From a virus, in IMG/VR virus record IMGVR_UViG_3300042197_003178, positions 1 to 22,309 of that record: DNA of 22,309 nucleotides. One strand, written 5' to 3'. Shown in pieces: positions 1-22,309 of this stretch (positions are counted from its first letter, which is position 1; the number at the start of each line of letters is the position of its first letter). The position numbers and the translations under genes were made by a program. The notes below the pieces were generated by a model. That model was given only the letters and a program-made list of their open reading frames with translations, had not been told where the DNA came from and searched no databases.

Positions 1-873
1 TACTTTAAGTGATTCATTTGTTTTTTCGTTCATTTTCACTTCGTCTGGTTTCTTAGCATTTTTTTCTTTAATTTTTTCTTCATCGTCTTCTTCATCAGAC
101 TCAGATTTCATTTCTTTTTCATCTTCATCTTTTTCATCTTCGTCTTCGTCTTCATCTTCTTCAGATTCGTCAGACTCAGATTTCATTTCTTTTTCATCTT
201 CGTCTTTATCATCTTCTTTATCTTCAGACTCTGATTTGACTGCTTCTTTTTCTTTTTCAGCTTTAGCTTTTTCTTCAGCTTCTCTTTTAGCTTTTTCTTC
301 TTCAGTTTCTTCTTTAACAGCTTCTTTTTCTTCTTTATCCTTAATTGCTTTTTGCAATGCAGGTGGTAAAGTTTTTTGTTTATCTGTTAATTCTTGTTCT
401 TTAACTGCGTCAGCTTTTTCTTTTTCAGCTTTAGCTTTTGCTTCATCTTCAGCTTTTTTCTTTTCGTCGTCAGTCATTTCTACTTCTTTAACCATTTCTT
501 TTTCTTTTTCATCTTCTTTTTTCTTATCATCTGTGTTAGGAGCCACTTCTGATTCAGATTTAGTAGATGCTTTTTCAGCTTCTGCTTTTGCCTTTTCTTC
601 TTCTTCTCTTTTTTTCTTTTCTTCTTCAGTCTCTTCAGTCTTTAATGCTTGACCTGTAAATGGACTGATTTCTTCTTTCTTAAGAATACCTTTAGCAATT
701 TCGTGTGCTTTTTTGATTGTTTCTTTTTCAAGAGGTGGTTCATCACCTGTAATTTCTTTAGCTTTTGCCATGCCAATTGCATATGCAGATCCCTCTTTAT
801 CTTGTTCAGATAATAGAGATTTAGCTTTCTTCGCTTCTGCTAATAGCTTTGCGATAGTTTCTTCGATTTTCAT
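1..873 (-). CDS. Lys/Glu-rich charged protein in the gp22 (prohead scaffold) position, 3' end cut off
   Basis: A frame is open from an ATG at 873 to the window edge, giving 291 visible codons and no stop, so the C-terminus is missing. The start has a clear AGGAG about eight bases upstream (plus-strand ctcct at 881-885). Residues 1-70 look folded, with helical segments around YAIGMAKAK and TIKKAHEIAKGI. After that the chain is mostly Glu, Lys, Asp and Ala, with runs of EEEK and DEDE, broken by a more ordinary stretch, LPPALQKAI, near residue 170. The phrase KEMKSESDE occurs twice near the end. It follows gp21, where T4 encodes gp22, the major prohead core scaffold (269 aa, also helical and charged). 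By position it may be gp22 or an extra core component. I do not recognise gp22 signature sequence, so the assignment is inference; an unrelated inserted gene ahead of the true gp22 is equally possible. Confidence 0.85.
   Translation of the reverse strand, partial: MKIEETIAKLLAEAKKAKSLLSEQDKEGSAYAIGMAKAKEITGDEPPLEKETIKKAHEIAKGILKKEEISPFTGQALKTEETEEEKKKREEEEKAKAEAEKASTKSESEVAPNTDDKKKEDEKEKEMVKEVEMTDDEKKKAEDEAKAKAEKEKADAVKEQELTDKQKTLPPALQKAIKDKEEKEAVKEETEEEKAKREAEEKAKAEKEKEAVKSESEDKEDDKDEDEKEMKSESDESEEDEDEDEDEKDEDEKEMKSESDEEDDEEKIKEKNAKKPDEVKMNEKTNESLKV
95..201. repeat. Direct repeat inside the charged gene (two 32-bp copies, 75-bp period)
   Basis: The 32 bases at 95-126 are repeated exactly at 170-201, an offset of 75 bases or 25 codons, so the reading frame is preserved. 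The repeat encodes the Asp-Glu-Lys-Glu-Met-Lys-Ser-Glu-Ser-Asp phrase. The DNA between is low-complexity Asp/Glu/Lys codons. This looks like an in-frame duplication that can expand or contract. Confidence 0.85.
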
Positions 874-899
874 TTATATTCTCCTAATTTAAATGTAAA

Positions 900-915
900 G
901 AATGGATTTCCATTC
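900..915 (-). other. Small intergenic hairpin between gp21 and the charged gene
   Basis: On the minus strand GAATGG-AAAT-CCATTC forms a perfect 6-bp stem with a four-base loop in the 50-base gap after gp21. It is not followed by a U-run typical of an intrinsic terminator. It could be a weak terminator, an mRNA-stabilising structure or chance. Confidence 0.4.
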
Positions 916-916
916 A

Positions 917-1580: not shown

Positions 1581-1584
1581 TTAA

Positions 1585-2001
1585 TTAACTACCTCTAGCA
1601 TTTGGATTATCATAAGAACCAAATTGTGCTGTTTCTATTTTAGTTTCAAATCCTGAATTTTTACGTAATGTTAAATATACATGAAGATTACCAGTTAAAC
1701 TAGCAACTATATCAGAAGTGTTGTTTATTCCATCAACATAACCTGAAAATATAATTGTATCTGGATGTTCACCACCAACAAATACTTGTGTACCATCTCT
1801 TGTTAATGTGAATGAACTACCAGCAGCACCAGACCAAACCACCTCAGTCATATTTACTTTTACAGTTCCTTCAATAACTTCAGTAGAAAGTAATGCATCT
1901 ACATCTAAATCAAAAGTTTCTGATGCAGTTCCTGCTGTATTAGAAAACTTAACAACAACTTCGTGTTTTGCTTTCTTTAAAATAGTTTTTGTGACAGCCA
2001 T
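1585..2001 (-). CDS. Small beta-rich virion structural protein (position of T4 gp68)
   Basis: A 138-aa protein with no catalytic motif. It alternates hydrophobic and polar residues like a beta-sandwich (KHEVVVKFSNTAGTASETF, then TLTRDGTQVFV, then LHVYLTLRK). This pattern resembles small virion proteins I recall from marine T4-like phages. It occupies the slot of T4 gene 68 (prohead core, 141 aa), but the sequence is beta-rich rather than helical and does not look like gp68. A head decoration or head-associated role is therefore a guess from context. AGGAG nine bases before the ATG supports the start. The gene begins 12 bases after the gp67-like gene and ends four bases before gp21. Confidence 0.85.
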   Translation of the reverse strand: MAVTKTILKKAKHEVVVKFSNTAGTASETFDLDVDALLSTEVIEGTVKVNMTEVVWSGAAGSSFTLTRDGTQVFVGGEHPDTIIFSGYVDGINNTSDIVASLTGNLHVYLTLRKNSGFETKIETAQFGSYDNPNARGS

Positions 2002-2013
2002 TAATTCTTACTC

Positions 2014-2199
2014 CTAATTATTTTCTGAGTTATTTTCTATTTTATCTTTAAATATTGTATTAGCAACTTCTTGCTTTAAACTATCTAATCTTGCTGATAC
2101 TTTTTCAGCCATTACTGTTGAAAATGATGAGTTAATTGCTTCAGCATTTCCTATTTCAATATTATCAATTAAGTCTTTAATTTTGTTTTTCATATCCAT
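2014..2199 (-). CDS. 67: Prohead core protein, gp67-like
   Basis: A 61-aa predicted helical protein lying directly between portal gp20 and the protease region, where T4 has gene 67 (80 aa, an internal prohead core protein cleaved by gp21). The central segment with SSFSTVMAEKVSARLDSLK followed by EVANTIF resembles small prohead core proteins I recall from marine T4-like phages, which carry a similar AMSDKIADAL-type helix. The ATG at 2199 is preceded by AAAGGAA; a second ATG lies two codons downstream. Only three bases separate it from the gp20 stop, and its ribosome binding site overlaps the gp20 end, so the two are probably co-translated. It likely forms part of the scaffold core and is degraded in maturation. 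The assignment rests on length, position and partial similarity. Confidence 0.75.
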   Translation of the reverse strand: MDMKNKIKDLIDNIEIGNAEAINSSFSTVMAEKVSARLDSLKQEVANTIFKDKIENNSENN

Positions 2200-2202
2200 A
2201 AA

Positions 2203-3768
2203 TTATTCCTTTTTTGGTTCATTAGTAATAGGTGTTTCAAGATCAACTTCATCTATTTCTGCATCTATTGCTTCATCATCTGTTTCAGCAGTTTGAGCTA
2301 CTTTTAAATCTTGTAGTTTGCTTTGCTCGCCTGCTATTTCTTTATCATTTTTCGCAATATCATCTTCTGTTTGTCTCAGAATATTCTTGCGTACCCAATT
2401 GATACTGTAATATTTTCCGATATATTGTTCAATAGAATTTAACATATTAATTCTTTGAGACAATATTTCGTTTTCTTTTAATTCAGTAAAGAAATTATCT
2501 CTTAAAAAATCAAAGCGAATATTTTGACTAAATTGTTCCCACTCTTGATCTTTTATAATTCCTTTTAGAATTAATTGCACTCTTAAAATACTGTAAAATA
2601 TAGTGCTAAATTTACGTCTTAATCTATCAATAAATTTTTGGAAGTTTAATTCATCACGACTTATTTCACTCGCTCTTCCTAAATTAAATCCTGTTTCACT
2701 TAACAATCTTGTGACAGGAACATTTAAAGATTGATATAATTTCTTTTGAAAATATTGTACATCAGCTATCTCGCCTAAATTTTGTCCACCTTGGAGTGTA
2801 GTAATTTCAGTTCCTCTACCACCCTCTCTTCTTGGCATCCAAAAGTCTTCAAGCATTGACATGTGTTTACGATCATCTCGTACTTCACCTGTTGATGCAT
2901 CATATACAACTTTATTTCTAAACTTATTCATGATGTCGTTTACATACTGCTCTGCTTTTAACTTAGGCAGATTACCAACATCAATATAAAATATTCTTCG
3001 TTCAGGTGCTCTTGATATACGATAGATTACTATACTATCTTCTACCATTTTCAACTGGTTCACTGGCTTTATCGCTTTATGTAAATGCGATAATATCATA
3101 CCAGAATTTAAATCAGTTAATCCTGATGGAGTAAATACAACTGAATCTAAAGATAGTTTAATACCTGTTGCTAAACTATCAGTAATTCCTTTATCATTGT
3201 AAATGTAGTATTCTTCTATATTTTTTACTACGTCAACACCCTTATCGTTTTTTTCTTTTTTATAATTTTTAATCTTACGTATTTTACGTGGGTCTATGAA
3301 TCTTAATTCAGCTATTCCATTTTTGGTATTTTTTGGATCTATAACTATATGATAGTATAGTCTTCCATCAACATACCATGTACGAAATATATCGTGACCA
3401 CGTAAATCAAAATCTAATAATTTATAAACTTCTTCAAACTCTTTTCTTATAGCTTCTTTAATATTATCTGATGCTTTTAGATCATCTAAAACTACGTCAA
3501 CTGAAAGACGTTGATTATCTAATACAATTGATTCGTTTACAATATCTTCAATCGCATTATCAGCATCTGGGTAATAAGAAACTTCACGATATCTTTTTAT
3601 TAAATCGTTTTCGCCCTTAATACTCGCATCTAAATCAAGTGTTAATCCATAATAAGCCGATGCGTCTGCTACCAACGTCGAACCATCTAAATTAGATGGA
3701 GTGACTACCGAACTAATTTCTTTTTTCGGTGTTTTTCTTTTAATCTCAAAGCCAAATAATTCTGCCAT
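2203..3768 (-). CDS. 20: Portal vertex protein gp20
   Basis: 521 aa, nearly the same length as T4 gp20 (524 aa). It is the dodecameric portal through which DNA enters the head and to which the packaging motor and then the neck bind. Family hallmarks seen include the N-terminal AYYGLTLDLDA region, IYRISRAPERRIFYIDVGNLP, VRDDRKHMSMLEDFWMPRR, GGRGTEITTLQGGQNLG and VPVTRLLSETGFNLGRASEI. These are the conserved stretches used for g20-based surveys of marine myoviruses. The C-terminal 40 residues are acidic (DDEAIDAEIDEVDLETP). The ribosome site is weak (CGGAAA about seven bases upstream). The gene follows gp19 with a 37-base gap that contains a possible imperfect hairpin. Very secure call. Confidence 0.97.
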   Translation of the reverse strand: MAELFGFEIKRKTPKKEISSVVTPSNLDGSTLVADASAYYGLTLDLDASIKGENDLIKRYREVSYYPDADNAIEDIVNESIVLDNQRLSVDVVLDDLKASDNIKEAIRKEFEEVYKLLDFDLRGHDIFRTWYVDGRLYYHIVIDPKNTKNGIAELRFIDPRKIRKIKNYKKEKNDKGVDVVKNIEEYYIYNDKGITDSLATGIKLSLDSVVFTPSGLTDLNSGMILSHLHKAIKPVNQLKMVEDSIVIYRISRAPERRIFYIDVGNLPKLKAEQYVNDIMNKFRNKVVYDASTGEVRDDRKHMSMLEDFWMPRREGGRGTEITTLQGGQNLGEIADVQYFQKKLYQSLNVPVTRLLSETGFNLGRASEISRDELNFQKFIDRLRRKFSTIFYSILRVQLILKGIIKDQEWEQFSQNIRFDFLRDNFFTELKENEILSQRINMLNSIEQYIGKYYSINWVRKNILRQTEDDIAKNDKEIAGEQSKLQDLKVAQTAETDDEAIDAEIDEVDLETPITNEPKKE

Positions 3769-3783
3769 AATCTATTTCCGAGT

Positions 3784-3802
3784 CCCTTTTCGAAACTCTG
3801 TT
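3784..3802 (-). other. Imperfect hairpin in the gp19-gp20 gap
   Basis: On the minus strand GAGTTT and GGACTC can pair over six positions (two of them G-T) around a seven-base loop, CGAAAAG, just ahead of the gp20 ribosome site. It is weak. It is listed because two other of the longer gaps (before gp18 and after gp21) also hold hairpins. Confidence 0.25.
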
Positions 3803-3805
3803 ATA

Positions 3806-4399
3806 TTATATTTTGATTGGGAATGAACCAACTGGTGTATCAATTGAAATATTCACTCCTACACCATCACGTGAAGCTGTATCACTGTCAAAGTAGTTGT
3901 ATTGAAATTCAACATCAAACGTTTCAACTGCATTTGCTGTATCATAGTCTAATTGAACTACACCAATCGAAATTGGGTAAGCATCAACAAAACGATATGA
4001 TTTAATAATTGCACCTGAACGATCTAATTGTCTTACTACTAAATCCGTTTGATAATCTCTTGGATTTACACGACCATTAGTTGTTTGATAATTTTGAATA
4101 CCATTTGACCAACGTTCCATCGCATTTCTTATATTGAAGTTTGTATCATTATAGATTGTGACAGTCCATGGAGCAAATGTTCTTTCTCCTGCAAAATTAA
4201 CAGCACGACCACGATATTGAACTGGAATGTTCTCTATTGTGCTTGCTGGTAATTGTGCTGCTTTACATAAAAATTGTGCTTGTGCACTCGCCAAAATCCC
4301 TGCAACAACGTAGCTAGGGAAAATTAACTCAACACGAAATTGATTGGGACGTGCTCCGCCACCAGTCATTTGTGCTTTAAAATCTGCTATATCAGCCAT
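3806..4399 (-). CDS. 19: Tail tube protein gp19
   Basis: 197 aa, somewhat longer than T4 gp19 (163 aa) but in the range of marine T4-like tube proteins. It forms the hexameric rings of the inner tail tube through which DNA passes. Recognisable family segments are the N-terminal GGGARPNQFRVELIFP, the PVQYRGRAVNFAGERTF loop with FAPWTVTIYND, then AMERWSNGIQ, and the C-terminal strand ETFDVEFQYNYFD. The ATG has AGGAG about nine bases upstream, and only 20 bases separate it from the sheath gene. The order sheath-tube-portal is exactly that of T4 genes 18-19-20. High confidence. Confidence 0.95.
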   Translation of the reverse strand: MADIADFKAQMTGGGARPNQFRVELIFPSYVVAGILASAQAQFLCKAAQLPASTIENIPVQYRGRAVNFAGERTFAPWTVTIYNDTNFNIRNAMERWSNGIQNYQTTNGRVNPRDYQTDLVVRQLDRSGAIIKSYRFVDAYPISIGVVQLDYDTANAVETFDVEFQYNYFDSDTASRDGVGVNISIDTPVGSFPIKI

Positions 4400-4419
4400 T
4401 TAAGTTTCTCCTTTAATTA

Positions 4420-6129
4420 TTAGCCACCGATTTCACTAAAATTGACACTTGATCTTGCTGCAACAAATGTTAGATTAATGAAGTTGATTGAGCGATTAGG
4501 TTTAATGAAAATGCTTGCTACAAATTCATTTTTATCGATTACTTCTGCTGTATTATTAGTTTCATCGCACACAACTCTAAAATCAGTAATACCACGACGA
4601 CCTTGTACGTCTCTTAAGAATGGTTCTATTTGATTTTTAAATTGAGCACGAGTGAAAGCATCATTGAACTCAAATAATTGAGCTTTTGCAGCAATTGAAA
4701 TTGCTTTTTCTAATACAATGAATAATCTTCGTACATTGATTCTATCGAAAGCACTTGGTGCTGACAATAAAGTTTTGTCTCCAAATAATTGTGTTCCTTC
4801 TCCTGGAAACGTCACAACTGGATTTACACCTTTTTGATAAAGTGAATCTCTTTGTGTTCTATTTGGATTAAATGCTAGTTTAACAACATTTTTAATTTGA
4901 CCACGATTTGCACCAGCTGGTGAATACCATGGATCTTGAGCATAATCTGTTCTTGCGGCAAGACCTGCTACATCACCATTTAATGGGACATAACGATACT
5001 TGTCATTATAACGATCATACTGAAACTTATAACCAGAATCTAATATAGCATAAGAAGAACTTGGAAGTCCATTTCTATATGTTATAATATCTGCAACTGG
5101 AGTTGCTGAAGAATCAGAAATATAAGAACCACCTGCTGCTTCTGGAGAGATAAAAGCTACTGAGTCTTTTCTTACTTCTACAACGTTGTTAATTACATAA
5201 GTTGCTGTTGCTGCTGTCGCTTTTCCTAAAAGGACTAACGATATGTCAAGCTGATCGTTTGCAAACAATGCATAACCTGTTTGAATGTTTCCTGCACTTG
5301 TACCTGCATAGTCATCAACACCACCAGTTAAAGAGGCATTTACTGCTGCGTTGATATCTTTGTAAGGTTGTGCTGCTGGAGCAGTACCCCAAGCAACTGC
5401 GTTAGCATTAGCTGCATTATTTACTTCTGCTGCTTGAGTAGGATGATCCATCCACCAAATGTATTTTGAATTTGAATTGATTACATCTCTGTAATAATTA
5501 TTCGAACCATCTGATTTTTTAGCACCTACTGCTTTTGAAACATATTCAAATTTTTCTAAAATTGTACCAGCTGTGCCAGTAAATAACCCATCTTCGTCGA
5601 TTACAATAATATGTATTTCGTCATTTGATACGTTATTTGCAGTCGCCCATGCTGATGTGTCTGGTGATCTATCAAAGCTAGTTTCATAAGTCCAACCTGT
5701 GAAAGTTGACTTATCAGCCATTGATACTTTTAATGAATTGCCGAGTGAACCAGCCCATTTAGCTGCAAATTCACCAACATTTCCCTGACCACCTGCGAAT
5801 GATGATAAGTATTGTTCTGCGTTTTTAATTTTAACTGCGGTACCAGAAACTACTGCATTTCTATCTGCTGTACCATTTGCTCTTACTACGAATAAATTAT
5901 TCGAGTATGATAAAAAGTTAGCTGCAGTAAAAAATGATTCAAAATTTGAATCATCTGGTTTACCGAATCTCTCTACTAATTCGTTTTCGGATGTAATTTG
6001 CACTGGATCTTCGATAGGACCAAATGCGAATTTACCTACAAATGCACCTGCACTTGTGGCAACATTAGGAACTATACTTGTGAAGTCCTTTTCTGTGACA
6101 ATTACTCCTGGACTTAATTGGAATGCCAT
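4420..6129 (-). CDS. 18: Contractile tail sheath protein gp18
   Basis: 569 aa (T4 gp18 is 659 aa; the variable outer domain is shorter here). It polymerises around the tube and contracts to drive the tube through the host envelope. The conserved N-terminus is present (LSPGVIVTEKDFTSIVPNV, then GAFVGKFAFGPIEDP). So is the conserved C-terminal half, with INVRRLFIVLEKAI, the FEFNDAFTRAQFKNQIEPFL stretch and the terminal SVNFSEIGG, all typical of phage sheath proteins. Residues of about 100-400 are the low-conservation, Ala/Gly/Ser-rich insertion domain exposed on the tail. A strong AGAGGAGAG ribosome site precedes the ATG, and the gene has the longest leader gap in the window (72 bases), consistent with high expression. 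Very secure. Confidence 0.96.
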   Translation of the reverse strand: MAFQLSPGVIVTEKDFTSIVPNVATSAGAFVGKFAFGPIEDPVQITSENELVERFGKPDDSNFESFFTAANFLSYSNNLFVVRANGTADRNAVVSGTAVKIKNAEQYLSSFAGGQGNVGEFAAKWAGSLGNSLKVSMADKSTFTGWTYETSFDRSPDTSAWATANNVSNDEIHIIVIDEDGLFTGTAGTILEKFEYVSKAVGAKKSDGSNNYYRDVINSNSKYIWWMDHPTQAAEVNNAANANAVAWGTAPAAQPYKDINAAVNASLTGGVDDYAGTSAGNIQTGYALFANDQLDISLVLLGKATAATATYVINNVVEVRKDSVAFISPEAAGGSYISDSSATPVADIITYRNGLPSSSYAILDSGYKFQYDRYNDKYRYVPLNGDVAGLAARTDYAQDPWYSPAGANRGQIKNVVKLAFNPNRTQRDSLYQKGVNPVVTFPGEGTQLFGDKTLLSAPSAFDRINVRRLFIVLEKAISIAAKAQLFEFNDAFTRAQFKNQIEPFLRDVQGRRGITDFRVVCDETNNTAEVIDKNEFVASIFIKPNRSINFINLTFVAARSSVNFSEIGG

Positions 6130-6155
6130 TTTGCTCTCTCCTCTTTAATTATTGA

Positions 6156-6175
6156 CACGTTTCTTGACAAACGTG
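6156..6175 (-). other. Perfect hairpin in the gp17-gp18 leader
   Basis: On the minus strand CACGTTT-GTCAAG-AAACGTG makes a perfect 7-bp stem, extendable by one G-T pair, with a six-base loop. It lies in the 72-base gap before the sheath gene. There is no following U-run, so it is not a classical intrinsic terminator. It may stabilise or delimit the sheath mRNA. It is the clearest intergenic inverted repeat in the window. Confidence 0.6.
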
Positions 6176-6189
6176 CTATTTCTCTTACC

Positions 6190-6198
6190 TATTTAGTT
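6190..6198 (-). promoter_or_regulatory. Possible late-promoter-like AACTAAATA box before gp18
   Basis: The minus strand reads AACTAAATA followed by GGTAAGAG at the junction after gp17. It is identical over nine bases to the box at 917-925, and the extension TAAATAGGTA recurs at 17348-17357. An initiation site about six bases downstream would give a leader of about 55 bases containing the hairpin. The TAAATA core matches the T4-like late -10 element; the first bases do not. Confidence 0.3.
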
Positions 6199-6201
6199 TT
6201 T

Positions 6202-7785: not shown

Positions 7786-7803
7786 AAGCCCTATCCACCT
7801 TTA

Positions 7804-8730: not shown

Positions 8731-8742
8731 ATTTGTTTCCTA

Positions 8743-9504: not shown

Positions 9505-9506
9505 GA

Positions 9507-10427: not shown

Positions 10428-10431
10428 ATGT

Positions 10432-11172: not shown

Positions 11173-11175
11173 AAT

Positions 11176-13275: not shown

Positions 13276-13276
13276 T

Positions 13277-13630: not shown

Positions 13631-13670
13631 CAGTTAGTTTCCTTATTTTTTCTTTTTATTCTTTTCTTGT

Positions 13671-13862
13671 TTAGTCTTCATCTTCTTCAGAGCTATCAGA
13701 GTCAGAATCTTCATCCCAGTCGGTGTCTTCTTCTGAGTCATCTTCGTCTCCTTCGCATTCGTGATTTTCAAGTTCTTCAACTTTATCACGAAGAGTCATC
13801 AAATCTTCTTCTATTCTATCAATAATATCTGAAACAGTTTCTTCTTTTTTCTTCTTAGCCAT
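13671..13862 (-). CDS. Small coiled-coil protein with acidic tail (possible fibre chaperone)
   Basis: A 63-aa protein in three parts. It has a basic start (MAKKKKEE), a helix with a regular heptad series (V10, I14, I17, L21, L24, V28, L31 at 4-3-4-3 spacing), and a tail of nearly pure Asp/Glu/Ser from residue 38 to the end. AGGAGA precedes the ATG, and a TATAAATC box lies 22 bases upstream. It sits between two fibre genes. T4 gp57A, the chaperone that helps fibre proteins trimerise, is also a short (79-aa) coiled-coil protein with an acidic end, so a chaperone-like role is a reasonable but unproven inference. No sequence identity to gp57A is claimed. Confidence 0.8.
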   Translation of the reverse strand: MAKKKKEETVSDIIDRIEEDLMTLRDKVEELENHECEGDEDDSEEDTDWDEDSDSDSSEEDED

Positions 13863-13881
13863 ACTTGTCTCCTATGTTTAG

Positions 13882-13898
13882 TAGATTTATATAATCTA
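13882..13898 (-). promoter_or_regulatory. Late-promoter-like TATAAATC box within a small palindrome
   Basis: The minus strand reads TATAAATC at 13891-13884, one base off the T4 late consensus TATAAATA. It lies about 11 bases upstream of the AGGAGA ribosome site of the 63-aa gene. The same bases are part of a TAGATT-ATATA-AATCTA inverted repeat (13882-13898). The position in a 50-base gap, and the spacing, fit a late promoter. Confidence 0.4.
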
Positions 13899-13912
13899 AG
13901 ATATTATATCAA

Positions 13913-16705
13913 TTATGCGTATGTTCCTCCGTCCACATCACCATACACTAAAGTCGTTCCATTTGATTGTAATACTTGTCCAGTTGAACCAAGTGATAAT
14001 TTATTTAATGCATTTGCTGCAGCACCAACTAATATATCACCAACTGAATATGATGTATTTCCTGTACCACCATAAATTGTACCGATTGTTGTACCATTCC
14101 AAGTACCAGTTGTAATAGTACCAAGAGTTGTAATAGTATTTTGTCCAACATATGTTCCAGCAATATCAATAGAGTCATTATTAACTGTAATACGATCAGC
14201 AGTTCCACCTATGTTAAGAACACCAGCTGAAAAAGTTAAACCACTTCCAGCTGTTGATGATTTTAAACCTAATTCATCTGAAACGATTTCAAGTCCACCA
14301 TCTGTTTTTAATACGATATCAATTTGATTTCCTGTAAATGCTAATCCAGAACCAGCAATATATGTTCCTGCTCCTGAAAATTGTTCAAATGTAATATTTG
14401 TCACACCAAAAGTGACCATTGGAATTACTTGTATCCAACCAGTTTTTCCGTTTATTGTACCATTTGATATAAACAAAAAGTCACCTGATGCAACTTCAGC
14501 TACTGTATTAAAATCAGCAGCACGTGTAAATACTGTTGAAGATGTACGAATATAGATACCATTATGAGCAGCATTTGCTTGATTTTTAATTAATACACGA
14601 TCACCATTAACTAATGAATAACCATCTAATGTATTAATTGGTGTATCTGTAGTTAATGTAGCACCTACTCCACTTGTACCATTGTCATAAGTCACAGATC
14701 CAGTAAGTGGTGCTGTAGTTGCAGCTTGTACTGAAGCATGAATATGTAATCCTTCAGCAACAGCATCAACATATGCTTTATTCGCAGCATCGTTAGGATC
14801 AACTGGAGTCGCAACGTCTTTAATTAAAGCATTGCTTACAGAAACATGTCCTGTTCCATTTGGATCAAGTGTAATTCCACCATTTACATTTGTTGAAAGA
14901 ATAGAATTGCCATCAATTTGAATATTGTCTACATCTAATTGTAATAATCCAGCTAATGTAGTTGTAGTTGAACCATTTGTTAAAGTTGTAGAACCTAATG
15001 TAATATTTTTTGTAGCAACTGCACCAGATGTGACAGTAAAGTTATTTGTTTCAAAAGATGCTATACCTTTATTATTTGTCGTTGCATCTTCACCAGCAAC
15101 AGTAATTATTGATCCAGCGTGAGATACATCCATTCCCTCACCACCAAGAATGGAGAAAGCATGAGTAGAAGGAGTTAATTCACCAGTATCTGTAGTGATA
15201 GATTTAATAACTGTGTCTTTTAATTCAACTGCACCAGAAGTCACATTAAAGTCATTAGTTTCAAAAGATGCTATACCTTTATTTCCTGTTGATGCATCTT
15301 CTGCAGCAATCGTTAATACATTATTTGTGACAGTAGTATCGATTCCTTCGCCACCAGTAAATGTTAATGTGTCTGTTAAATGAGCAATCGCATCTGTTCC
15401 TGTATCACCTGCAATATTTAATGTAGTTGAAATGTTTTCTGTACCAGCAGCAGTTAATTGTCCTTGTGCATTTACAGTAAATGTAGGAATTGCTGTAGTT
15501 GAACCATATGCACCAGCAGTGACAGTTGTATTTGTAATATTAACTGTTGACGTATTTCCAGCATCACTATTTGTGACAGTAATACCAGTTCCTGAAGTGA
15601 TTGCACCACCTACTGTATCATAAATGAATTCAGCAAGAGTGTCAGTTGTACCATTAATATATGGATTATTTAAAACTAATTTTCCAGTTCCATTTGGAGA
15701 AATTGTAATATCATTATTTGCTCCATCAGCAATTGTGATTGATCCAGAATTTGTTCCTGAATTTGTGTTTAAAACTAAATCACCTGTTCCATTTGTAGTT
15801 AGAGTAGCATTTGCATTACTATCTCCAATTCTTACTGTATCTGAATCTAATTGAACATCACCTGTTCCATTAGGAGCAAGTATAATATCTCCATTTGAAT
15901 TTGTAGATGATAATGTATTTGTATCTAATCTTAAATTATCAATGTTAATAACACCACCAACATTTAAATTTTCAGCAATACCAACACCTCCATCAACAAC
16001 TAATGCTCCAGTTGTAGTTGATGTTGAGGTTAAAGTTGAATTGATGTTTGTTGTTAAAATTGTAGATGCGACATCTAAACTATCAGTGTCAAGAGACATG
16101 GCTTCAACACCATTTGTGACAAAAGAAAGTGTGTCATTTGATGCTCCTGGAGTACTCTCAGCTGAAATAAATGTTAAACCATCAACTGATTTAACTCCAC
16201 CTAATGATCCCCAAGTTGCACCTGAATATCCTTCGAAAGAAGAAGTGTCTGTGTTATAACGAATCGCACCTTGTACGTTAGGTGCTCTTTGTGCTGTAGT
16301 ACCAACTGGAATTATAATTCCATTTGTACCAGTAATAGATACATAACCAGTTCCATCTGGATCAAGTACAATATTTCCATTGGCATCTGTAGAAGATATT
16401 GTATTTCCATTTAGATCTAAATTATCTACTTTTAAATTATCAATTTTGCTATTTGAATCTGTAATTAATGCAGAAGATGCAGTTAATGTACCACGAGTGT
16501 GGTCTAATAAATCTGTAAAATATTTTCCACCTATAACTAAGTGACTCGCAGCATTTCCGTTTGTTTCTGTACCAAGTCCTAAGTAAAGACGATCACCACC
16601 ATTTGCGTCGTTATTAGTAAGACCTGAATATGCAAGTTCTCCAGCTGCAAGTACTGCGGGATTACCTGCTGTTGTCGAACGTTTAATTCTTATTATTGAT
16701 GCCAT
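13913..16705 (-). CDS. Long tail-fibre-like protein, 930 aa
   Basis: It begins with IIRIKRSTTAGNPAVLAAGE and YLGLGTET, a marine myovirus fibre N-terminal domain that probably anchors to the baseplate. A long beta shaft follows, with units of the form STxxNGxIxLxPxGTGxV repeated at about residues 105-125, 265-285 and 595-615. There is also a larger duplicated segment (GNKGIASFETNDF near 470 and NNKGIASFETNNF near 540). From about residue 635 comes the widely shared fibre-tip module NKAYVDAVAEGL, GDRVLIKNQ, AHNGIYIRTSS, RAADFNTVAEVASGDF. It ends with GGTGNTSYSVGDILVGAA, LGSTGQVLQSNGTTLVYG and DGGTYA. It is probably a trimeric host-recognition fibre. No C-terminal chaperone domain is visible. 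AGGAGA precedes the ATG. Confidence 0.9.
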   Translation of the reverse strand: MASIIRIKRSTTAGNPAVLAAGELAYSGLTNNDANGGDRLYLGLGTETNGNAASHLVIGGKYFTDLLDHTRGTLTASSALITDSNSKIDNLKVDNLDLNGNTISSTDANGNIVLDPDGTGYVSITGTNGIIIPVGTTAQRAPNVQGAIRYNTDTSSFEGYSGATWGSLGGVKSVDGLTFISAESTPGASNDTLSFVTNGVEAMSLDTDSLDVASTILTTNINSTLTSTSTTTGALVVDGGVGIAENLNVGGVINIDNLRLDTNTLSSTNSNGDIILAPNGTGDVQLDSDTVRIGDSNANATLTTNGTGDLVLNTNSGTNSGSITIADGANNDITISPNGTGKLVLNNPYINGTTDTLAEFIYDTVGGAITSGTGITVTNSDAGNTSTVNITNTTVTAGAYGSTTAIPTFTVNAQGQLTAAGTENISTTLNIAGDTGTDAIAHLTDTLTFTGGEGIDTTVTNNVLTIAAEDASTGNKGIASFETNDFNVTSGAVELKDTVIKSITTDTGELTPSTHAFSILGGEGMDVSHAGSIITVAGEDATTNNKGIASFETNNFTVTSGAVATKNITLGSTTLTNGSTTTTLAGLLQLDVDNIQIDGNSILSTNVNGGITLDPNGTGHVSVSNALIKDVATPVDPNDAANKAYVDAVAEGLHIHASVQAATTAPLTGSVTYDNGTSGVGATLTTDTPINTLDGYSLVNGDRVLIKNQANAAHNGIYIRTSSTVFTRAADFNTVAEVASGDFLFISNGTINGKTGWIQVIPMVTFGVTNITFEQFSGAGTYIAGSGLAFTGNQIDIVLKTDGGLEIVSDELGLKSSTAGSGLTFSAGVLNIGGTADRITVNNDSIDIAGTYVGQNTITTLGTITTGTWNGTTIGTIYGGTGNTSYSVGDILVGAAANALNKLSLGSTGQVLQSNGTTLVYGDVDGGTYA
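15041..15305. repeat. Duplicated segment inside the 930-aa fibre gene
   Basis: The stretch around 15047-15095 and the stretch around 15254-15302 are near-identical. They share a block starting tttcaaaagatgctatacc and a following gcatctt, at a period of about 207 bases, which keeps the frame. Each copy encodes the NKGIASFETN phrase. It is an internal duplication giving shaft repeats and a possible site of recombination between fibres. Confidence 0.75.
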
Positions 16706-16717
16706 TTTTTTCTCCTA

Positions 16718-17005
16718 TTAAAATTCTCCACTATCTACTGTTTGTAGATTTAATGTTTTAGTTGCTGTCCATTTCGAAGTATTTGTTTTATAAACTAATA
16801 ATGAACCATTATTTAATCCCTCAGATACTATATCAACTTGCACGTTTTCAGAAAGTGGTACTGCAGCACCACTCGTTCCTTGAATTCCTATTGTCGTAAT
16901 CGTTGAACCACCACCATCTGTTGTAGTTGAAGTTGTCAGAGTAGTATTACTCGGACTAATCGTACTACCTTGTGAGTCTACACTTACTGTTAATGTATCA
17001 GCCAT
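16718..17005 (-). CDS. Small beta-rich fibre-cluster protein, 95 aa
   Basis: A Thr/Ser-rich 95-aa protein with N-terminal strands (LTVSVDSQGSTISPSN). Its C-terminal portion, GSLLVYKTNTSKWTATKTL followed by LQTVDSGEF, matches a motif that ends many small proteins of marine T4-like fibre clusters. No enzymatic motif and no signal peptide are seen. The ATG directly abuts the TAA of the upstream 111-aa gene (TAAATG), and the AGAGG ribosome site lies inside that gene, so translation is probably coupled. It may be a small baseplate or fibre connector; the function is not known. Confidence 0.8.
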   Translation of the reverse strand: MADTLTVSVDSQGSTISPSNTTLTTSTTTDGGGSTITTIGIQGTSGAAVPLSENVQVDIVSEGLNNGSLLVYKTNTSKWTATKTLNLQTVDSGEF

Positions 17006-17341
17006 TTATCTTGTGACCTCTGGTGTTATTGTTATAATTCCTTCAACTAATCTACTTCTTGCGTTGAATGAGTCGATTAATTCAACATCATATACATATC
17101 TTCCAGCTTTCATCGCTGTTGAAGTTGCATGTCCCAAAGCAAGTTTAATTTTACCACTTGTATTTGGAGCAATAAATGTAGTAGTTATAGCTGTATAAGT
17201 CGTTGAACCATAACCTTTTCGCATTTGCCCAGAAACTGTACAATTTGTAAAATCTCTTGGTGTTCCATCAGTATTATTAAATGTTAAAATAGCAGACCAA
17301 TCTGATCCTTGATCTATAAAAAAATCTGTTATTTGTGCCAT
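17006..17341 (-). CDS. Immunoglobulin-like small virion protein (BppU-N-like), 111 aa
   Basis: The 111-aa sequence shows the pattern QGSDWSAILTFNNTDGTPRD, TVSGQMRKGYGST, GKIKLALGHATSTAMKAG, RYVYDVELIDS and a closing VEGIITITPEVT. This is the layout of the small Ig-like domain found in phage baseplate upper proteins and many marine phage structural ORFs: an input strand, a modifier strand, then a Y-x-Y-D-V-E-L strand. It probably connects or decorates fibres. A TAATAAATAG box lies just upstream of the ATG, and the best ribosome-site match, AGG, partly overlaps it. It is coupled to the 95-aa gene. Confidence 0.8.
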   Translation of the reverse strand: MAQITDFFIDQGSDWSAILTFNNTDGTPRDFTNCTVSGQMRKGYGSTTYTAITTTFIAPNTSGKIKLALGHATSTAMKAGRYVYDVELIDSFNARSRLVEGIITITPEVTR

Positions 17342-17347
17342 TTCTTA

Positions 17348-17360
17348 TACCTATTTATTA
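17348..17360 (-). promoter_or_regulatory. Possible late promoter TAATAAATAGG before the 111-aa gene
   Basis: The minus strand reads TAATAAATAGGTA in the 29-base gap, and its AATAAATA differs from T4 TATAAATA only at the first base. It shares TAAATAGGTA with the box before gp18. However, it ends only about 10 bases before the ATG, which would leave almost no leader, so it may be only AT-rich leader sequence. Confidence 0.25.
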
Positions 17361-17370
17361 AAATTAAAAA

Positions 17371-18069
17371 CTAAAAAGCATCAACTTTATATTCAAACCA
17401 TCCAAAATCTGTACCACCAACTGTACCAATATATACAAACCAACGTGTTTTTCTATCATTTGATGTAAATACTGAAGTACCAGACATAGTAATAGTTGCA
17501 GTAGCACTATTTTGTGTAATAATAGTACCTTGTCCTGTTGAAAGATTTTGATTATTCGTATTAATAGTCACAGTAATTGAACCAACAGTTGATCCTGCTG
17601 GTCTATTAAACCAAAACATATCTCCAATCGCAGGAGAAGCTGGTAATGTTATACTGTAATTAAGATCATTCCCTAAAATAAAAAATTTACCAACACCATA
17701 AGTAAGTGTTGTTGAACCAGCTGTTGGAACTACAACATCACTAGGAAATTTACCTCTTAATGAAGATGAAAGTTTATCAGCACTGATTGAATTGTCAGGG
17801 ATTGTATTTTGAAGATATTGTGTTGAAAGATAAATTGCGAATAGACTAACACCTGCTAAAATGGGAGCACCTGCTATAGAAATAGCACTACCCCCATTTA
17901 TAATTGTGTAATCTGTACTTGGTTTTTGGATTAAACCATTCTTAATTAAAAGAATGCTTCCTGCTGAACCAATTGGAAAATCTAAAGCAAATGTTGTCGA
18001 ACTTCCATTCGGAGCGAACACCTGTATTTCAGAATTACCATGTATTGGATCTCTACCCAAGTAAGCCAT
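17371..18069 (-). CDS. Tail-fibre-like protein, 232 aa
   Basis: It begins YLGRDPIHGNSEIQVFAPNG, STTFALDFPIGSAGSILLIK and NGLIQKPSTDYTI. This is a widespread fibre N-terminal beta-domain that usually follows the pattern tFtLd, then a-v-nGv-Q-P..dYt. A linker with IPDNSISADKLSSSL follows. The C-terminal 120 residues form a Thr/Gly-rich domain (TLTYGVGKFFILG, LPASPAIGDMFWFNR, KTRWFVYIGTVGGTDFGWFEY), resembling terminal domains of short fibres. AAGGAAAG stands upstream of the ATG. It lies next to the giant structural gene and is probably a short fibre or baseplate-attached adhesin. Receptor and partner are unknown. Confidence 0.85.
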   Translation of the reverse strand: MAYLGRDPIHGNSEIQVFAPNGSSTTFALDFPIGSAGSILLIKNGLIQKPSTDYTIINGGSAISIAGAPILAGVSLFAIYLSTQYLQNTIPDNSISADKLSSSLRGKFPSDVVVPTAGSTTLTYGVGKFFILGNDLNYSITLPASPAIGDMFWFNRPAGSTVGSITVTINTNNQNLSTGQGTIITQNSATATITMSGTSVFTSNDRKTRWFVYIGTVGGTDFGWFEYKVDAF

Positions 18070-18087
18070 AGGATTGTTTCTTTCCTT

Positions 18088-21000
18088 TTAAGCTTGAGAT
18101 TCAGACCAAGATAATTTTCCTGTGACTACTAGTGGTGAAGCTTGAGTAATCGTTGAAGTATCCGTAGGCTGAATCGCAATAGTTAATAAGTCAGGACCAT
18201 TAGGATAAACTGAGTCACCACCTAAAATCGAATTACCCATATCAATCAATCCACTAAGTGTAAAGTTAGTTGAACCAGAAGAAGCTTGAGATGAGAAAAT
18301 AACAGTTCCATCTCTAATAATATCACCTGTATCGTGAGATATCAAGTTAGATAATGATGGAGCCTGAACTTTTTCAAAAGTTAATTTAGATGGGTTTCCA
18401 TTTAGAATGAAAAATACGTTCACTGTTTTATTTGTAGTGATAGCACCTGAGTCTAATTTCATTTGCATACGATTTATAATTTCTCTTTCACCCACTGCAC
18501 CAGTTATACCAGAGTCAACTGCAGGTGCTAAACGAATCGAAATAAGAGGAATAGGACGTGTTAAGTCAACTGCTCCATTTCCAAATGCGTTTTCACCAAT
18601 TGTAAACACTGTTCCACTTGGTATTTCTGGATTGTTTGGAACTGCTGTTGTTGCAGGGAAAGATGTAAATATACGTGAACTTGCTCCAGCTTTTTGAACC
18701 TGAGACACATAAGTACCATCTGGTATATTGCTAGTTGCATCTTTAATTAATTGACCCACAATTGCCTTACCAGCATCAGCTTCAGAACATTGGAAAGAAT
18801 ACACAAACACACGACGTGAGTTTAATGTAATTTCACTGAATGTACTGTTCGCTGTTGATGTTGCAGTTTGAGTTAATCCGAGTGCAAATACGAAAGGTTT
18901 TGACTGTGCTGTAAATAAGTAAGCATCGTCATCATCAAACGTACCATCCATAATAATAGATGTACCAAAGTGGAATAATGTAGGAGCTGAAGTCGGAGCA
19001 TCTCCGTTTTCAATTTCATATCTTGCAGGTAAGTTTCCTGAACGGAAATATGACTCATTTAATTTATTATTGTGTATAAATTCATGGTGGTAATGAATAT
19101 GACCTTTGGCGTCTTTTGTACCAAATCTTATTTTACCAGCACCATACCAAGAATAGTCAGCATAACACATTTGAATTTTATGTATATCAAATATATATCC
19201 ATTTGGACCAGTTCCATCACAAGGATCGATATTCCAGTCCGATTGTTTTACTCTAACATCTTCACGAATTGTACATTTAATTCCTGTAGCTGTAATTCCA
19301 CGATAAGGAGGTTGAACTACCATACGAGAATCTGAATCAACTGAAATAACACGATACATTTGTCCTCGTATTTGAACGTAATCACCAACAATTAATTGAG
19401 ATTGGAATGAAGTATTATCTCCTGTAATTACTTGAGAGTTTTTAGTCGCATTAACTTGTCCTGATAATTGAAGTGTACAAGATCTTCTCACAACATATAG
19501 ATATTGACCATCATATTCGAAGAAGAAACCATTTGAATCATCAAACATACCTGCACGAATAGCTGATTGAGACCAAGAATCTCTTCCATACTCTGGGAAT
19601 CCTGCAGCACTTTGTTGTTGTGGCACAGCACCAACAAGATATGTAAATGTGTTTATATCTATTACTGAATTTACTGGGAATGTTCCATTGTATACGTTAT
19701 TTCCAGTTGTCACAACAGCTTTATCTATAATAACCACATTACCAACACTCAAATTGTGTGGTTCTTGACATGTTGCTCTTACAGCATCTGGATAAGCACC
19801 ACCAAGATTTACATATTCAAGTTTTTGTAAAGTTTTCAAAGGTGAGAAGTTAATCGCAAATGAGTTTTGTATACCTTTACCAGATTGATATCTAAAGTAT
19901 TTACGAGATTGACGAATAATCTTGCTATTTGGTGAAGTTCCTGCTGTTATATCAACACCTCCGTCAAATGATTTATGTAATGAGAAACCATCTGGACGTA
20001 AATTTACAGAACTAATTGTAGAATAGTTTGCAGTTGTAAATGTAGATGGGAATCCTGGAAGTGCTGGATCTATCGACATTTCTGTATCAGAAATAACACG
20101 ATCAACAGAGAATTCATAAAGTCTAGCTGCAATATAAATGAATATTGAATCAAATCGTTTAAATTTACTTAAGAAACGAGTACCTGAGCCAGTAATAGTT
20201 CTTCCATTTTGAGTTCCACTTACTGATCCTGACTGTTTAGTTGTTTTTAAAACGTTTGTTGTTTGAATTGATTGAGTTTGTGTTGCACCTGTTGGTGTTA
20301 ATTGCAATAATTGTCCACCAATCGCTGAAACATAAGAGTTAGCTAAAGAAATCGCATATTCAGATACAGGGATTACGTAAAGATAATTATTATCTACACC
20401 CGCAACTCCAATTATATCAGTATTTCCTGCTCCTGGAACATAAGCAACTAATTCTCCTGGATAAAAGTTTGTAGGATTATAAGGATTTGCTGTTCCTAAA
20501 ACAATTGTATCATTTGTTGAATTAACTGCACCACTATTCGCATCCGAACGAGAATCAAAACTATATGTTCTTGCTGGAATTTTAAATGGAACATTTACTG
20601 TAAATGTTTCAGAATTTGGTACAGAAGCAATTGCATATATACCATCATAAGCACCATCTTGAGATAAAACGTTAAATGTTTGAACTCCTGACCCTGATGA
20701 AGTAAGAAGTATTGTTCCTGTTGTAGCTGATACAATAAGTCTAAGTTCCCACCAGTTTGTCATTCCTGGAACAGCAGCATTTACATCTGATGTTGGAGAA
20801 ACAGTCACAGTCACACCTTTTGGAGAACCAACTAAGAATGATGAAATATCTTTTGGAACCCATGTTGGTTCATTTTGGAAAATACTTGAATCTTGTCCAT
20901 TTACAGCACCAATGTTATAAATGATATTATCAGCAAATCTTGTTCTTAAGAAACGACTTGTTCTTGATAATTTTCCTCTATGTTGAATCATCGTCACAGT

Positions 21001-22309
21001 ACATTGTGTTGGTGCTGATCCTAATGGAGTTTCAATGTTTACAGTAAATACTTGGTTTTGAGCTATTGACGTGCTTCCAAAAGAGTTGGTTGTAGCAGTA
21101 CCAGCACCTGAAGAACCAGCAGCTTTAATTAATAAACGAGAATCGTTTACGAATTGAAGAGAGTAGCTTGTTCCACTCGATAATCCACCGATTGGTGTTC
21201 CTGCAGTTGTATAAGTTGCAGTTGTTGCTCCTGATATTTTGTGGTTTTGAATAAAAATTGTATTGTAAAGAACATTTGTTTTATTATTTGTCACAGTGAA
21301 AGCTGCTGGGAAAGAAGCTATATCATTTGTGAATGGTGTTGTTCTAGATGTAAATCTTAAATAATTTGAGTTTACAACGTTTGCTGTCACTGAAAATTCT
21401 GAAACAGTATAAGGAACAACTGTTGCTGAAGAGTTTACGTATGCAAATCTATTTGTTGTAGAATATCCAGCACCAGTAATTGCAAGTGTACAAACTTCAT
21501 TATTTGTAATTCCATGAGATGGAACATAAAATGTATTTTTTAAAGCAGTTAAATCATCAACAAAACTATAAAATATTTCAGATGAAGTGCCATATGATGC
21601 ATCACCAGTTTCTGGATAATTAATCACAAAACTTCCGAGTGTAGTTGTATCACTTACTTGAAAATTATATGGAGGATTTGAAGTTCCATATCTTCCATTA
21701 TTTCTTGTATTTGCTTGGAATGTAAAACCATCACTTGAACCATTTGTAGAAGATCCATTTGGCACTCGACCTTGGAAACCAATAATTCTATTTCCTGGAC
21801 GTCCACCTTTTCCGAATGTTGCTCCAGCAAAATCTGATCCTGAATGTGCTGTGTTTAAAGCAGTTGGTACGTGATCTATTCTTATGTAATAAATGTGACG
21901 ATAGTTTGAAGTAGGATTACCAAATTTATCTCTGTTAATCGCACCAAATTGAAATTGAATATCTATATTATAATCAGCTCCAGAAAGATAAAAACATCTT
22001 GTCACATCTGTATTCGGAAATTCATTTCCAGGAGATGCACCTTTAGCACCAAGAGAGTAGGAAATATTTCCAGTACCAAGATTTAGATAATTTCTTGCTA
22101 TATAAGTAATATTAATTGGGCTTCCTGCAGTATTTGCTCCTTCAAAATATAATTGATAAATTATTCCTTTAGTTGGAACACGAGATGCTCCCATTATACT
22201 TTGTACGTTCCATGTGAATGAGTTTGTGTTAGTGTTATTAACATAACCTCTGTCATTAGATCCTGTAGCACCTGTCGTCACGTTTCTTGAGAAGAAAGCA
22301 GTGTATCTT
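18088..22309 (-). CDS. Giant virion structural protein (baseplate/fibre type), 5' end beyond the window
   Basis: The frame is open from the stop at 18088 to the right edge. The first in-frame candidate, a GTG at 22279-22281, is preceded in frame by nine more sense codons (reading RYTAFFSRN) with no ribosome site. The gene almost certainly starts outside, and at least 1406 residues are present. The chain is beta-rich. Counting from the GTG, two copies of a small module (GRTITGSGTRFLSKFKRFDS with VISDTEMSIDPALPG near residues 680-745; NSQVITGDNTSFQSQLIVGD with VDSDSRMVVQPPYRG near 937-1000) flank a central domain. Around residues 1015-1060 stands a motif with DPCDGTGPNGYIFDIHKIQM, YADYSWYGAGKIRFG and RSGNLPARYE, which I recall from large structural proteins of marine T4-like cyanophages. 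By place it may replace T4 gp10-type baseplate proteins; the specific role is unknown. Confidence 0.9.
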   Translation of the reverse strand, partial: RYTAFFSRNVTTGATGSNDRGYVNNTNTNSFTWNVQSIMGASRVPTKGIIYQLYFEGANTAGSPINITYIARNYLNLGTGNISYSLGAKGASPGNEFPNTDVTRCFYLSGADYNIDIQFQFGAINRDKFGNPTSNYRHIYYIRIDHVPTALNTAHSGSDFAGATFGKGGRPGNRIIGFQGRVPNGSSTNGSSDGFTFQANTRNNGRYGTSNPPYNFQVSDTTTLGSFVINYPETGDASYGTSSEIFYSFVDDLTALKNTFYVPSHGITNNEVCTLAITGAGYSTTNRFAYVNSSATVVPYTVSEFSVTANVVNSNYLRFTSRTTPFTNDIASFPAAFTVTNNKTNVLYNTIFIQNHKISGATTATYTTAGTPIGGLSSGTSYSLQFVNDSRLLIKAAGSSGAGTATTNSFGSTSIAQNQVFTVNIETPLGSAPTQCTVTMIQHRGKLSRTSRFLRTRFADNIIYNIGAVNGQDSSIFQNEPTWVPKDISSFLVGSPKGVTVTVSPTSDVNAAVPGMTNWWELRLIVSATTGTILLTSSGSGVQTFNVLSQDGAYDGIYAIASVPNSETFTVNVPFKIPARTYSFDSRSDANSGAVNSTNDTIVLGTANPYNPTNFYPGELVAYVPGAGNTDIIGVAGVDNNYLYVIPVSEYAISLANSYVSAIGGQLLQLTPTGATQTQSIQTTNVLKTTKQSGSVSGTQNGRTITGSGTRFLSKFKRFDSIFIYIAARLYEFSVDRVISDTEMSIDPALPGFPSTFTTANYSTISSVNLRPDGFSLHKSFDGGVDITAGTSPNSKIIRQSRKYFRYQSGKGIQNSFAINFSPLKTLQKLEYVNLGGAYPDAVRATCQEPHNLSVGNVVIIDKAVVTTGNNVYNGTFPVNSVIDINTFTYLVGAVPQQQSAAGFPEYGRDSWSQSAIRAGMFDDSNGFFFEYDGQYLYVVRRSCTLQLSGQVNATKNSQVITGDNTSFQSQLIVGDYVQIRGQMYRVISVDSDSRMVVQPPYRGITATGIKCTIREDVRVKQSDWNIDPCDGTGPNGYIFDIHKIQMCYADYSWYGAGKIRFGTKDAKGHIHYHHEFIHNNKLNESYFRSGNLPARYEIENGDAPTSAPTLFHFGTSIIMDGTFDDDDAYLFTAQSKPFVFALGLTQTATSTANSTFSEITLNSRRVFVYSFQCSEADAGKAIVGQLIKDATSNIPDGTYVSQVQKAGASSRIFTSFPATTAVPNNPEIPSGTVFTIGENAFGNGAVDLTRPIPLISIRLAPAVDSGITGAVGEREIINRMQMKLDSGAITTNKTVNVFFILNGNPSKLTFEKVQAPSLSNLISHDTGDIIRDGTVIFSSQASSGSTNFTLSGLIDMGNSILGGDSVYPNGPDLLTIAIQPTDTSTITQASPLVVTGKLSWSESQA

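Follow-up and report, generated by a model that had tools for sequence, protein, structure and literature searches.

Restriction-site avoidance is well known in phages, and the loss of GATC (Sau3A) sites from Staphylococcus phage K is a documented case (PMC6532042). Hypermodification of particular thymidines is also known: the DNA of phages M6, ViI and phiW-14 is reported to resist type II enzymes at sites that contain TG or TC, a flanking T being protective too, and the authors propose that the 5-hydroxymethyldeoxyuridine (5hmdU) kinase prefers such TS positions (S = G or C) (PMC6449724). Phage systems built on a TET dioxygenase are said often to include a C5-methylase (PMC12730594). Among phages of SAR11 bacteria, GANTC is described as depleted in some pelagiphages although SAR11 genomes are without recognisable restriction–modification (R-M) systems (PMC9516812); a freshwater phage related to HTVC010P is described as having a putative antirestriction gene (PMC6811365); and for PMP-MAVG-15, a complete freshwater pelagimyophage of the fonsimyophage group PMP-D, matching tRNAs have led to Ca. 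Fonsibacter being named as host (PMC7029224). Here we analyse a stretch of 22,309 nucleotides of viral DNA (IMG/VR record IMGVR_UViG_3300042197_003178; the whole stretch is hereafter 'the window'), the structural region of a T4-like relative of the SAR11 phages, from which the palindromic word GTWAC (W = A or T) is missing on both strands. The phage is a freshwater one whose predicted hosts are SAR11 bacteria. Like phage K, it has a genome of roughly 140 kb that has lost a palindromic restriction site; unlike in phage K, where the enzyme is known, several motifs are purged together here, palindromes with TG or TC on both strands are exempt, and the enzyme is one we infer.

Exact counting finds no GTTAC and no GTAAC in the window, where 32.8 GTWAC are expected under a maximal-order Markov model and 46.4 under a trinucleotide model; the remaining absent pentamers had expectations below 4 (maximal-order) or below 9 (trinucleotide). 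In 300 synonymous-codon shuffles of 19 window open reading frames (ORFs; 21,021 bp), GTWAC averaged 43.1 (standard deviation, sd, 3.9) with a minimum of 33, against the observed 0. An earlier note on this DNA, made by eye, had reported the absence, which the count bears out together with its 'about 100' cases of GTTA (103) and its statement that GTAA is never followed by C (150 GTAA, none of them GTAAC); TTAC is likewise never preceded by G, but occurs 116 times and not about 95. Nor did an exact count uncover several sites, a codon-preserving shuffle come out near zero or the same depletion appear in other phages, any of which the note had held against its own claim: 66 more distant relatives, found by their terminases and grouped by clade, together have 2040 GTWAC against 1842 expected.

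The absence extends to a whole genome. The 144,834-bp environmental contig G001 has a terminase 98% identical to the window's, the window coming from a related strain and another genome. GTWAC occurs 0 times against 171.8 Markov-expected across 144.8 kb of this contig, with zero in each 10-kb stretch, and its codon-shuffled coding sequence holds 204.6 (sd 8.8) against 0 observed. The word is missing from all three reading phases and from bases outside called ORFs (ORFs of this and other contigs being longest-ORF script calls). Thus GTWAC has been purged from the phage genome by selection on a DNA word, mainly via synonymous changes, and the note's argument that selection acts on a palindromic DNA motif and not on protein is upheld by the loss in three phases and genome-wide. 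With 31.3% GC, three tRNAs (Arg, Val-GAC, Thr-TGT) and genes for an S21 ribosomal protein, an AdoMet decarboxylase, a FabF-type ketoacyl synthase and a TET/JBP-type 2-oxoglutarate (2OG) dioxygenase, G001 matches the figures and markers given for PMP-MAVG-15 (144,833 bp, 31.3% GC, 3 tRNAs, speH, fabF, 2OGFeDO; PMC7029224), and from this agreement we infer that the two are the same phage; the window is tied to it only via the terminase identity.

The sister word GTSAC is indeed abundant in the window, with 48 sites (26 GTGAC, 22 GTCAC; the note had about 46, and ten of its eleven example coordinates are exact, the one given as 3711 being truly at 3701), against 23.2 expected from the Markov model and 16.2 (sd 3.7, maximum 27) from the codon shuffle. 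All 40 Val-Thr pairs of the window are written with GTC (22) or GTG (18) and none with GTT or GTA, although the latter two make up 82% of Val codons, so that a pattern noticed in a handful of pairs holds throughout. In G001 the 2,826 Val codons are divided into GTT 1189, GTA 1118, GTG 343 and GTC 176 (GTT and GTA again 82%), and before Thr (n = 160) into GTG 81, GTC 79 and no GTT or GTA. GTSAC in G001 numbers 160 against 34 expected in the Val-Thr phase; the two remaining phases have 25 (35 expected) and 13 (12 expected). GTSAC abundance is therefore mainly a by-product, because GTWAC loss forces GTG or GTC before Thr: the excess, confined to that phase, is largely forced and no sign of preference, and we rejected GTSAC as a positively selected motif. 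The genes for tRNA-Val(GAC) and tRNA-Thr(TGT) adjoin in G001 (about 99317-99468; locus L086 19317-19468). Once GTWAC is lost, only two Val codons are left for use before Thr, one of them GTC, and 79 of the 176 GTC codons of G001 are in that position; no Val or Thr tRNA was seen in the sister contigs G029 and G030, which are fragments.

The loss of GTWAC is lineage-specific: two clades purge the word and a sister lineage keeps it. The best 40 of 2540 annotated terminase records are 48-50% identical to the window's terminase (tblastn) and all belong to Synechococcus or Prochlorococcus phages, while seven environmental contigs (L001-L007) carry terminases 95-98% identical to it. In a tree of the window and 39 of 80 loci, where the lineage reading rests on branches only, purging contigs fall into a freshwater group and a second group, which we take to be marine from the origin of the samples, separated by a branch supported 98/95; this would mean either two gains or one gain with several losses. 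The sister contigs G029 and G030, which overlap by 14.5 kb at 97-98% DNA identity and whose median protein identity to G001 is 62-63%, have 116 GTWAC for 83 expected and 89 for 80, and the cultured marine relative HTVC008M has 410 for 377. Within the freshwater group itself, L005 and L006 (83-92% identical to the window where aligned) hold 39 sites for 58 expected, and where one of these contigs has GTWAC at 27 aligned sites, the window reads GTSAC in 15 and shows other changes or gaps in the remainder. Relatives outside the regime (G029/G030, the 66 pooled loci, L005/L006) thus keep the site, as is expected of restriction avoidance.

Several observations concern the distribution of the word within and among contigs. 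An apparently mosaic freshwater lineage (L005, L006, L123, L124, L343-L345, L405-L407) has many GTWAC in the structural region and few near replication genes, and in several of its contigs ACSGT is present again. In the 131-kb marine contig G033 all eight remaining GTWAC lie within one 25-kb part (91749-116185; L476-L477), the other 106 kb having none. Two candidate correlates were rejected. The putative tail protein encoded by ORF182 of G001 is common to both purging clades and is found in non-purging phages too, many of its carriers keeping GTWAC (L350, L356-L359, L361, L362, L364, L366-L376, L378, L379, L381-L385). Likewise, presence of the TET/JBP gene does not cause the loss, as many contigs with it keep GTWAC (L404, L409, L412, L424-L426, and L431-L464 except L455 and L458).

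GTWAC belongs to a panel of purged palindromes. In G001 the observed and expected counts are 0/172 for GTWAC, 0/25 for GGCC, 0/20 for ACSGT, 0/10 for CCGG, 1/31 for GTTAAC and 2/28 for GTATAC. The marine contigs G007 and G009 also lack CCGG, ACSGT, GTTAAC and GTATAC, with ACGT at 0/155 and GGTACC at 0/33, and have lost nearly all GGCC, GCGC and AAGCTT, whereas the sister contigs G029/G030 purge GGCC, ACSGT, GTATAC and GTTAAC yet keep GTWAC. Combined losses of palindromic words are the outcome to be expected from several type II restriction specificities. A single agent for GTWAC and ACSGT, suspected since L005 and L006 lose both avoidances, was rejected: the two are uncoupled, G029/G030 keeping GTWAC while lacking ACSGT, and L405 and L406 being low in GTWAC while keeping ACSGT. 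Three phages recorded on the same Pelagibacter strain also differ in near-absolute palindrome losses: HTVC019P (L156) has GATC 0/100 and GCGC 0/34; HTVC010P (L155) has CTNAG 0/63 and GTSAC 0/15, with GTWAC kept at 56/56; and HTVC008M (L153/L157/L158) has AGTACT 0/40, TCTAGA 0/29 and TCGA 2/121. The panel is thus not set by the laboratory host alone. A T4-like relative without the TET/JBP gene, G013 (L327-L334), has AGCT 1/254, AACGTT 0/48 and TGCGCA 0/41.

What the purged palindromes of phages with the TET/JBP gene (TET+) have in common is that none has TS on both strands. We call a palindrome a TS palindrome when it has TG or TC on both strands, and a word purged when its observed count is at most 15% of an expectation of at least 8. 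Across 11 TET+ records, a non-independent set from few clades that left out, for example, the TET+ contigs G018 and G034, TS palindromes were purged in 0 of 406 tests and TS-free palindromes in 64 of 448, and the pattern held in all 11; in six genomes without the gene (TET-) the figures were 33/194 and 25/256. Thus TS palindromes are exempt from purging in TET+ records. In the fragment G029, which lacks the gene and overlaps the TET+ contig G030, 0/31 TS and 3/32 TS-free palindromes were purged. Among the freshwater and marine groups the only dinucleotide classes missing from purged words are CA/TG and GA/TC, and the contrast within TET+ persists when only seven records, drawn from across the lineages, are used (p ~2e-11). 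The p-values are descriptive, since it was the data themselves, scanned several times, that prompted the TS idea; the rule was formulated from the counts before it was compared with the account of M6, ViI and phiW-14 (PMC6449724). When the threshold is relaxed to 20%, the purged TS palindromes are GGATCC in the sister lineage and GTCGAC in pooled distant TET+ loci.

Sites that survive a purge carry the same signature in their flanks. With survivor groups chosen by clade and survivors de-duplicated by sequence, all 18 distinct GTWAC sites left in freshwater contigs read TGTWACA, against a share of 15% in codon shuffles and 19-20% in the sister lineage; so do 8/8 in the marine contig G033 and 21/29 in the purging marine contigs pooled. 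Surviving CCWGG takes the form TCCWGGA at 149/157 freshwater and 50/54 sister sites (0.18 in controls), and surviving GGCC is TGGCCA at 7/7. CTATAG survives as TCTATAGA at 11/13 marine and 6/11 freshwater sites, and GCGC as TGCGCA at 19/49 against 0.07. Words that start with A (ACGT, AAGCTT), for which a flanking T gives TA, show no T-flank excess, their survivors being few (1 and 2 marine sites). In M6, ViI and phiW-14 a TG/TC context and a flanking T decide which type II sites resist (PMC6449724); here the same rule emerges from which sites have disappeared and which remain.

The TET/JBP-type dioxygenase gene is the clearest candidate source of such protection. In G001 it lies at 44780-46078 (PF12851, E 2e-25); the family was found in 4 of 13 records (G001, G007, G009, G010) and further in G037-G040, tblastn located the gene in G030, G033 and G036, and PF12851 was not found in HTVC008M, HTVC010P, HTVC019P, AG345, G012 and G013. 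A search of PDB sequences with the dioxygenase gave no significant match. In 11 of 11 records inspected the gene directly follows one for a DnaB/gp41-type helicase (named from sequence), and the genes downstream differ between lineages, as exchangeable decorating enzymes might. In G001, G030 and G010 the neighbour is a protein of 334-335 aa, the G001 copy of which has a weak glycosyltransferase-like match (E 0.12); in G009 it matches a DNA glucosyltransferase family (E 6e-13), a family of unknown function fitting better (E 6e-34); in the remaining records the neighbours are other enzymes. These phages are like the phage TET systems of hypermodified cytosine in having a TET/JBP dioxygenase with, in one relative (G009), an adjoining DNA-glucosyltransferase-like gene. 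They are unlike them in that none of the 11 TET+ records (several of them fragments) gave a match to C5-methylase PF00145, and in that the context of protection speaks for T or A and not for C.

Searches for other modification and nuclease genes covered 128 of the 192 G001 ORFs by family scans, 72 of these also by PADLOC. Overall, PF00145 occurred in one of 13 records (the TET-negative G016) and in none of a further set of 10, PF01555 in none of 9 plus 8, and PF02086 in none of 11 plus 10. A phage methylase was accordingly rejected as the cause, and the methylase that the earlier note had suggested looking for was found neither in G001 nor in its purging relatives under any of the three families. 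A crude methylase motif scan flagged ORFs 106, 173 and 182 of G001, none of them backed by a family search. The matches listed for the 128 ORFs included no recognisable type II restriction enzyme; the nuclease-like matches listed beyond replication and recombination were SegE GIY-YIG, a TnsA-like N-terminal domain, PDDEXK_1 and a homing-endonuclease model.

The features of the window are collected in Table 1. Within its portal ORF, positions 2707-3084 are 76-77% identical (megablast) to two single-cell viruses with no GTWAC avoidance (136 observed for 123 expected, and 56 for 50).

Table 1. Features of the 22,309-nt window, with positions and strand as counted on the sequence analysed.
Feature	Position	Strand	Evidence
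Whole window, no GTWAC on either strand	1..22309		0 observed against 32.8-46.4 expected; codon shuffle 43.1, sd 3.9
Span of the 48 GTSAC sites, codon-forced; would be the shielded form of GTNAC if TS is protected	1991..22281		Site coordinates; Val-Thr codon use
CCWGG sites, 12/12 of the form TCCWGGA	1..22309		T/A flank class 12/12; 66 control loci 0.18
Terminase large subunit (gp17), query for relatives and tree	6202..7785	-	tblastn to annotated terminases, 48-50% identity in the 40 best records
Portal protein (gp20), putative	2203..3768	-	Naming in the earlier note and T4-like gene order; name from HTVC008M order
Large ORF, probably tail/fibre-type, first start codon near the window edge	18088..22281	-	Homologue of G001 ORF182 (1861 aa); role predicted

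We consider that these observations probably reflect restriction-site avoidance by a phage whose DNA carries a shield on its TS thymines. The selection on the DNA word documented above would be the work of a sequence-specific, type II-like endonuclease that phages encounter in their natural hosts, an agent to which the data point strongly. Several specificities would act together, the GTWAC one hitting the freshwater lineage and the marine clade and sparing the sister lineage; restriction, which the earlier note had proposed as the simplest cause, stands as such, with the qualification that GTWAC is one member of a panel and not a lone target. The statistics further suggest that TS thymines are modified, so that a site with TS on both strands would go uncut and be kept. 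GTSAC has TS on both strands and GTWAC does not, and the W/S split may therefore reflect the shield: the enzyme, whose target the note had taken to be GTWAC, could read GTNAC. As for the chemistry, the TET/JBP dioxygenase might start the modification by hydroxylating thymine, and the varying downstream enzymes possibly decorate the hydroxylated base in the manner of base J. Thymine suggests itself as the substrate by exclusion, because neither a C5-methylase nor a 5hmdU kinase was found. More tentatively, then, the TET/JBP enzyme of SAR11 phages and their relatives may work on thymine rather than methylcytosine and write a base-J-like mark at every TG and TC; sites with TS on both strands would persist, only unshielded sites would be erased, and the erased words would read out both the chemistry and hidden restriction enzymes. 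M6, ViI and phiW-14 are thought to use incorporated 5hmdU and a 5hmdU DNA kinase, whereas here a TET/JBP dioxygenase is the candidate.

A number of observations weigh against a TS shield written by this enzyme. The TET+ records fall in few clades. Some TS palindromes are scarce: GGATCC stands at 3/21 in G001 and 1/18 in the sister lineage (observed/expected), TGATCA at 7/28 and GTCGAC at 5/33 in distant TET+ phages, and G001 has roughly half the expected number of CATG and TCGA. ACWGT is unpurged and CCWGG purged unless T-flanked, although both have TS on one strand. The flank signature is uneven, with TGTWACA at only 24/54 sites in a wider marine set (which included the non-purging L412), a flanking T at only 94/210 marine CCWGG sites, and T-flanked survivors at 0/7 each for freshwater GGTACC and GTATAC. 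The 5hmdU kinase domain (PF18723, HMUDK_hel) was found in none of 10 records. Among phages with established modification, ViI shows the purge pattern (TS 0/43, TS-free 5/50 in 100 kb of its genome), but phiW-14 has little avoidance (1/45 and 1/40 in 100 kb) and M6 does not follow the rule (8/32 and 7/32 in 50 kb), from which it appears that a known modification does not always leave a purge mark. Finally, the hosts are an awkward fit: among over 100 SAR11 genomes, only a single one is said to encode R-M (PMC7029224), and eight SAR11 metagenome-assembled genomes are described as without it (PMC9516812).

Of the alternatives, plain restriction avoidance, in which a host enzyme reads GTWAC, no shield exists and the TS pattern is coincidental, is the one we take most seriously, doubtful as it seems to us. 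The zero in 144.8 kb of G001, the phage K precedent for loss of a single site and the independence of the GTWAC purge from the remaining panel all accord with it, as does M6, which purges TS palindromes as often as others in spite of its known TS modification. Plain avoidance must, however, explain why none of the 406 TS tests in the 11 TET+ records came out purged when other SAR11 phages purge GATC, GANTC, TCTAGA and GAATTC, and why the T-flank exemption is common to several unrelated motifs.

An improbable alternative is a phage-encoded nuclease that destroys host or competitor DNA at GTWAC, the phage's own sites having been purged. It would suit a predicted host clade reported to be nearly free of R-M, and the different panels of HTVC008M, HTVC010P and HTVC019P on one strain. 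Against it, no type II restriction enzyme appeared among the G001 matches listed, a many-motif panel would need many enzymes, and L005 and L006, whose terminases are near-identical, carry many GTWAC.

The shield might instead lie on adenine, the protected base being A after G or C, as with a Mom-like modification. TS and SA are the same dinucleotides on opposite strands, so that T before S is not separable from A after S in either the purge or the flank data. We nevertheless consider an adenine shield very unlikely. Survivors include CAA and CAT contexts, from which the sequence context of Mom differs; G001 gave no match to PF01555 or PF02086, although no search was aimed at Mom-like families; and a TET/JBP gene is present, methylcytosine or thymine being the described substrates of its family (PMC12730594).

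Hardly credible, lastly, is mutation or translation bias (codon-pair or dinucleotide) or an RNA-level GUUAC/GUAAC target with no DNA cutter, for although Val-Thr codon pairs are visibly altered, codon-pair, Markov and RNA-level causes are rejected by the shuffles, the phase analysis and the sister lineage: the absence spans three phases and non-ORF bases, both palindromic partners vanish, and the sister lineage, of similar composition, keeps normal GTWAC, as do the 66 pooled loci.

For restriction avoidance by a shielded genome, the contradiction over the hosts admits of three resolutions: unrecognised systems in the natural hosts, an incomplete host assignment, or pressure from elsewhere. A search for the host through the phage bS21 protein, made as one scan of genomes, turned up just one weak match to S21, which is uninformative as to the host. 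Relative to the pelagiphage study that treats GANTC (PMC9516812), what is added here is lineage-specific panels and the exemption of TS palindromes in TET+ phages. Our literature search for GTWAC returned only papers unrelated by title, and among the matches listed for pelagiphage palindromes none was titled on GTWAC avoidance. Both restriction avoidance and TS-specific hypermodification are known; reading the latter from the former in TET-carrying SAR11 phages was not found in the literature searched.

SAR11 bacteria are among the most abundant bacterial groups and are described as nearly restriction-free, yet their phages bear strong, lineage-specific marks of avoidance. Should the TS exemption prove real, the bases that an uncultured phage modifies could be read from its sequence alone, a phage TET/JBP enzyme acting on thymine would be a direct and testable prediction, and the purged motifs would form a map of the restriction enzymes that these phages meet in nature. 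If the base-J-like reading is true, bacteria regarded as free of restriction enzymes would have a hidden set of them.

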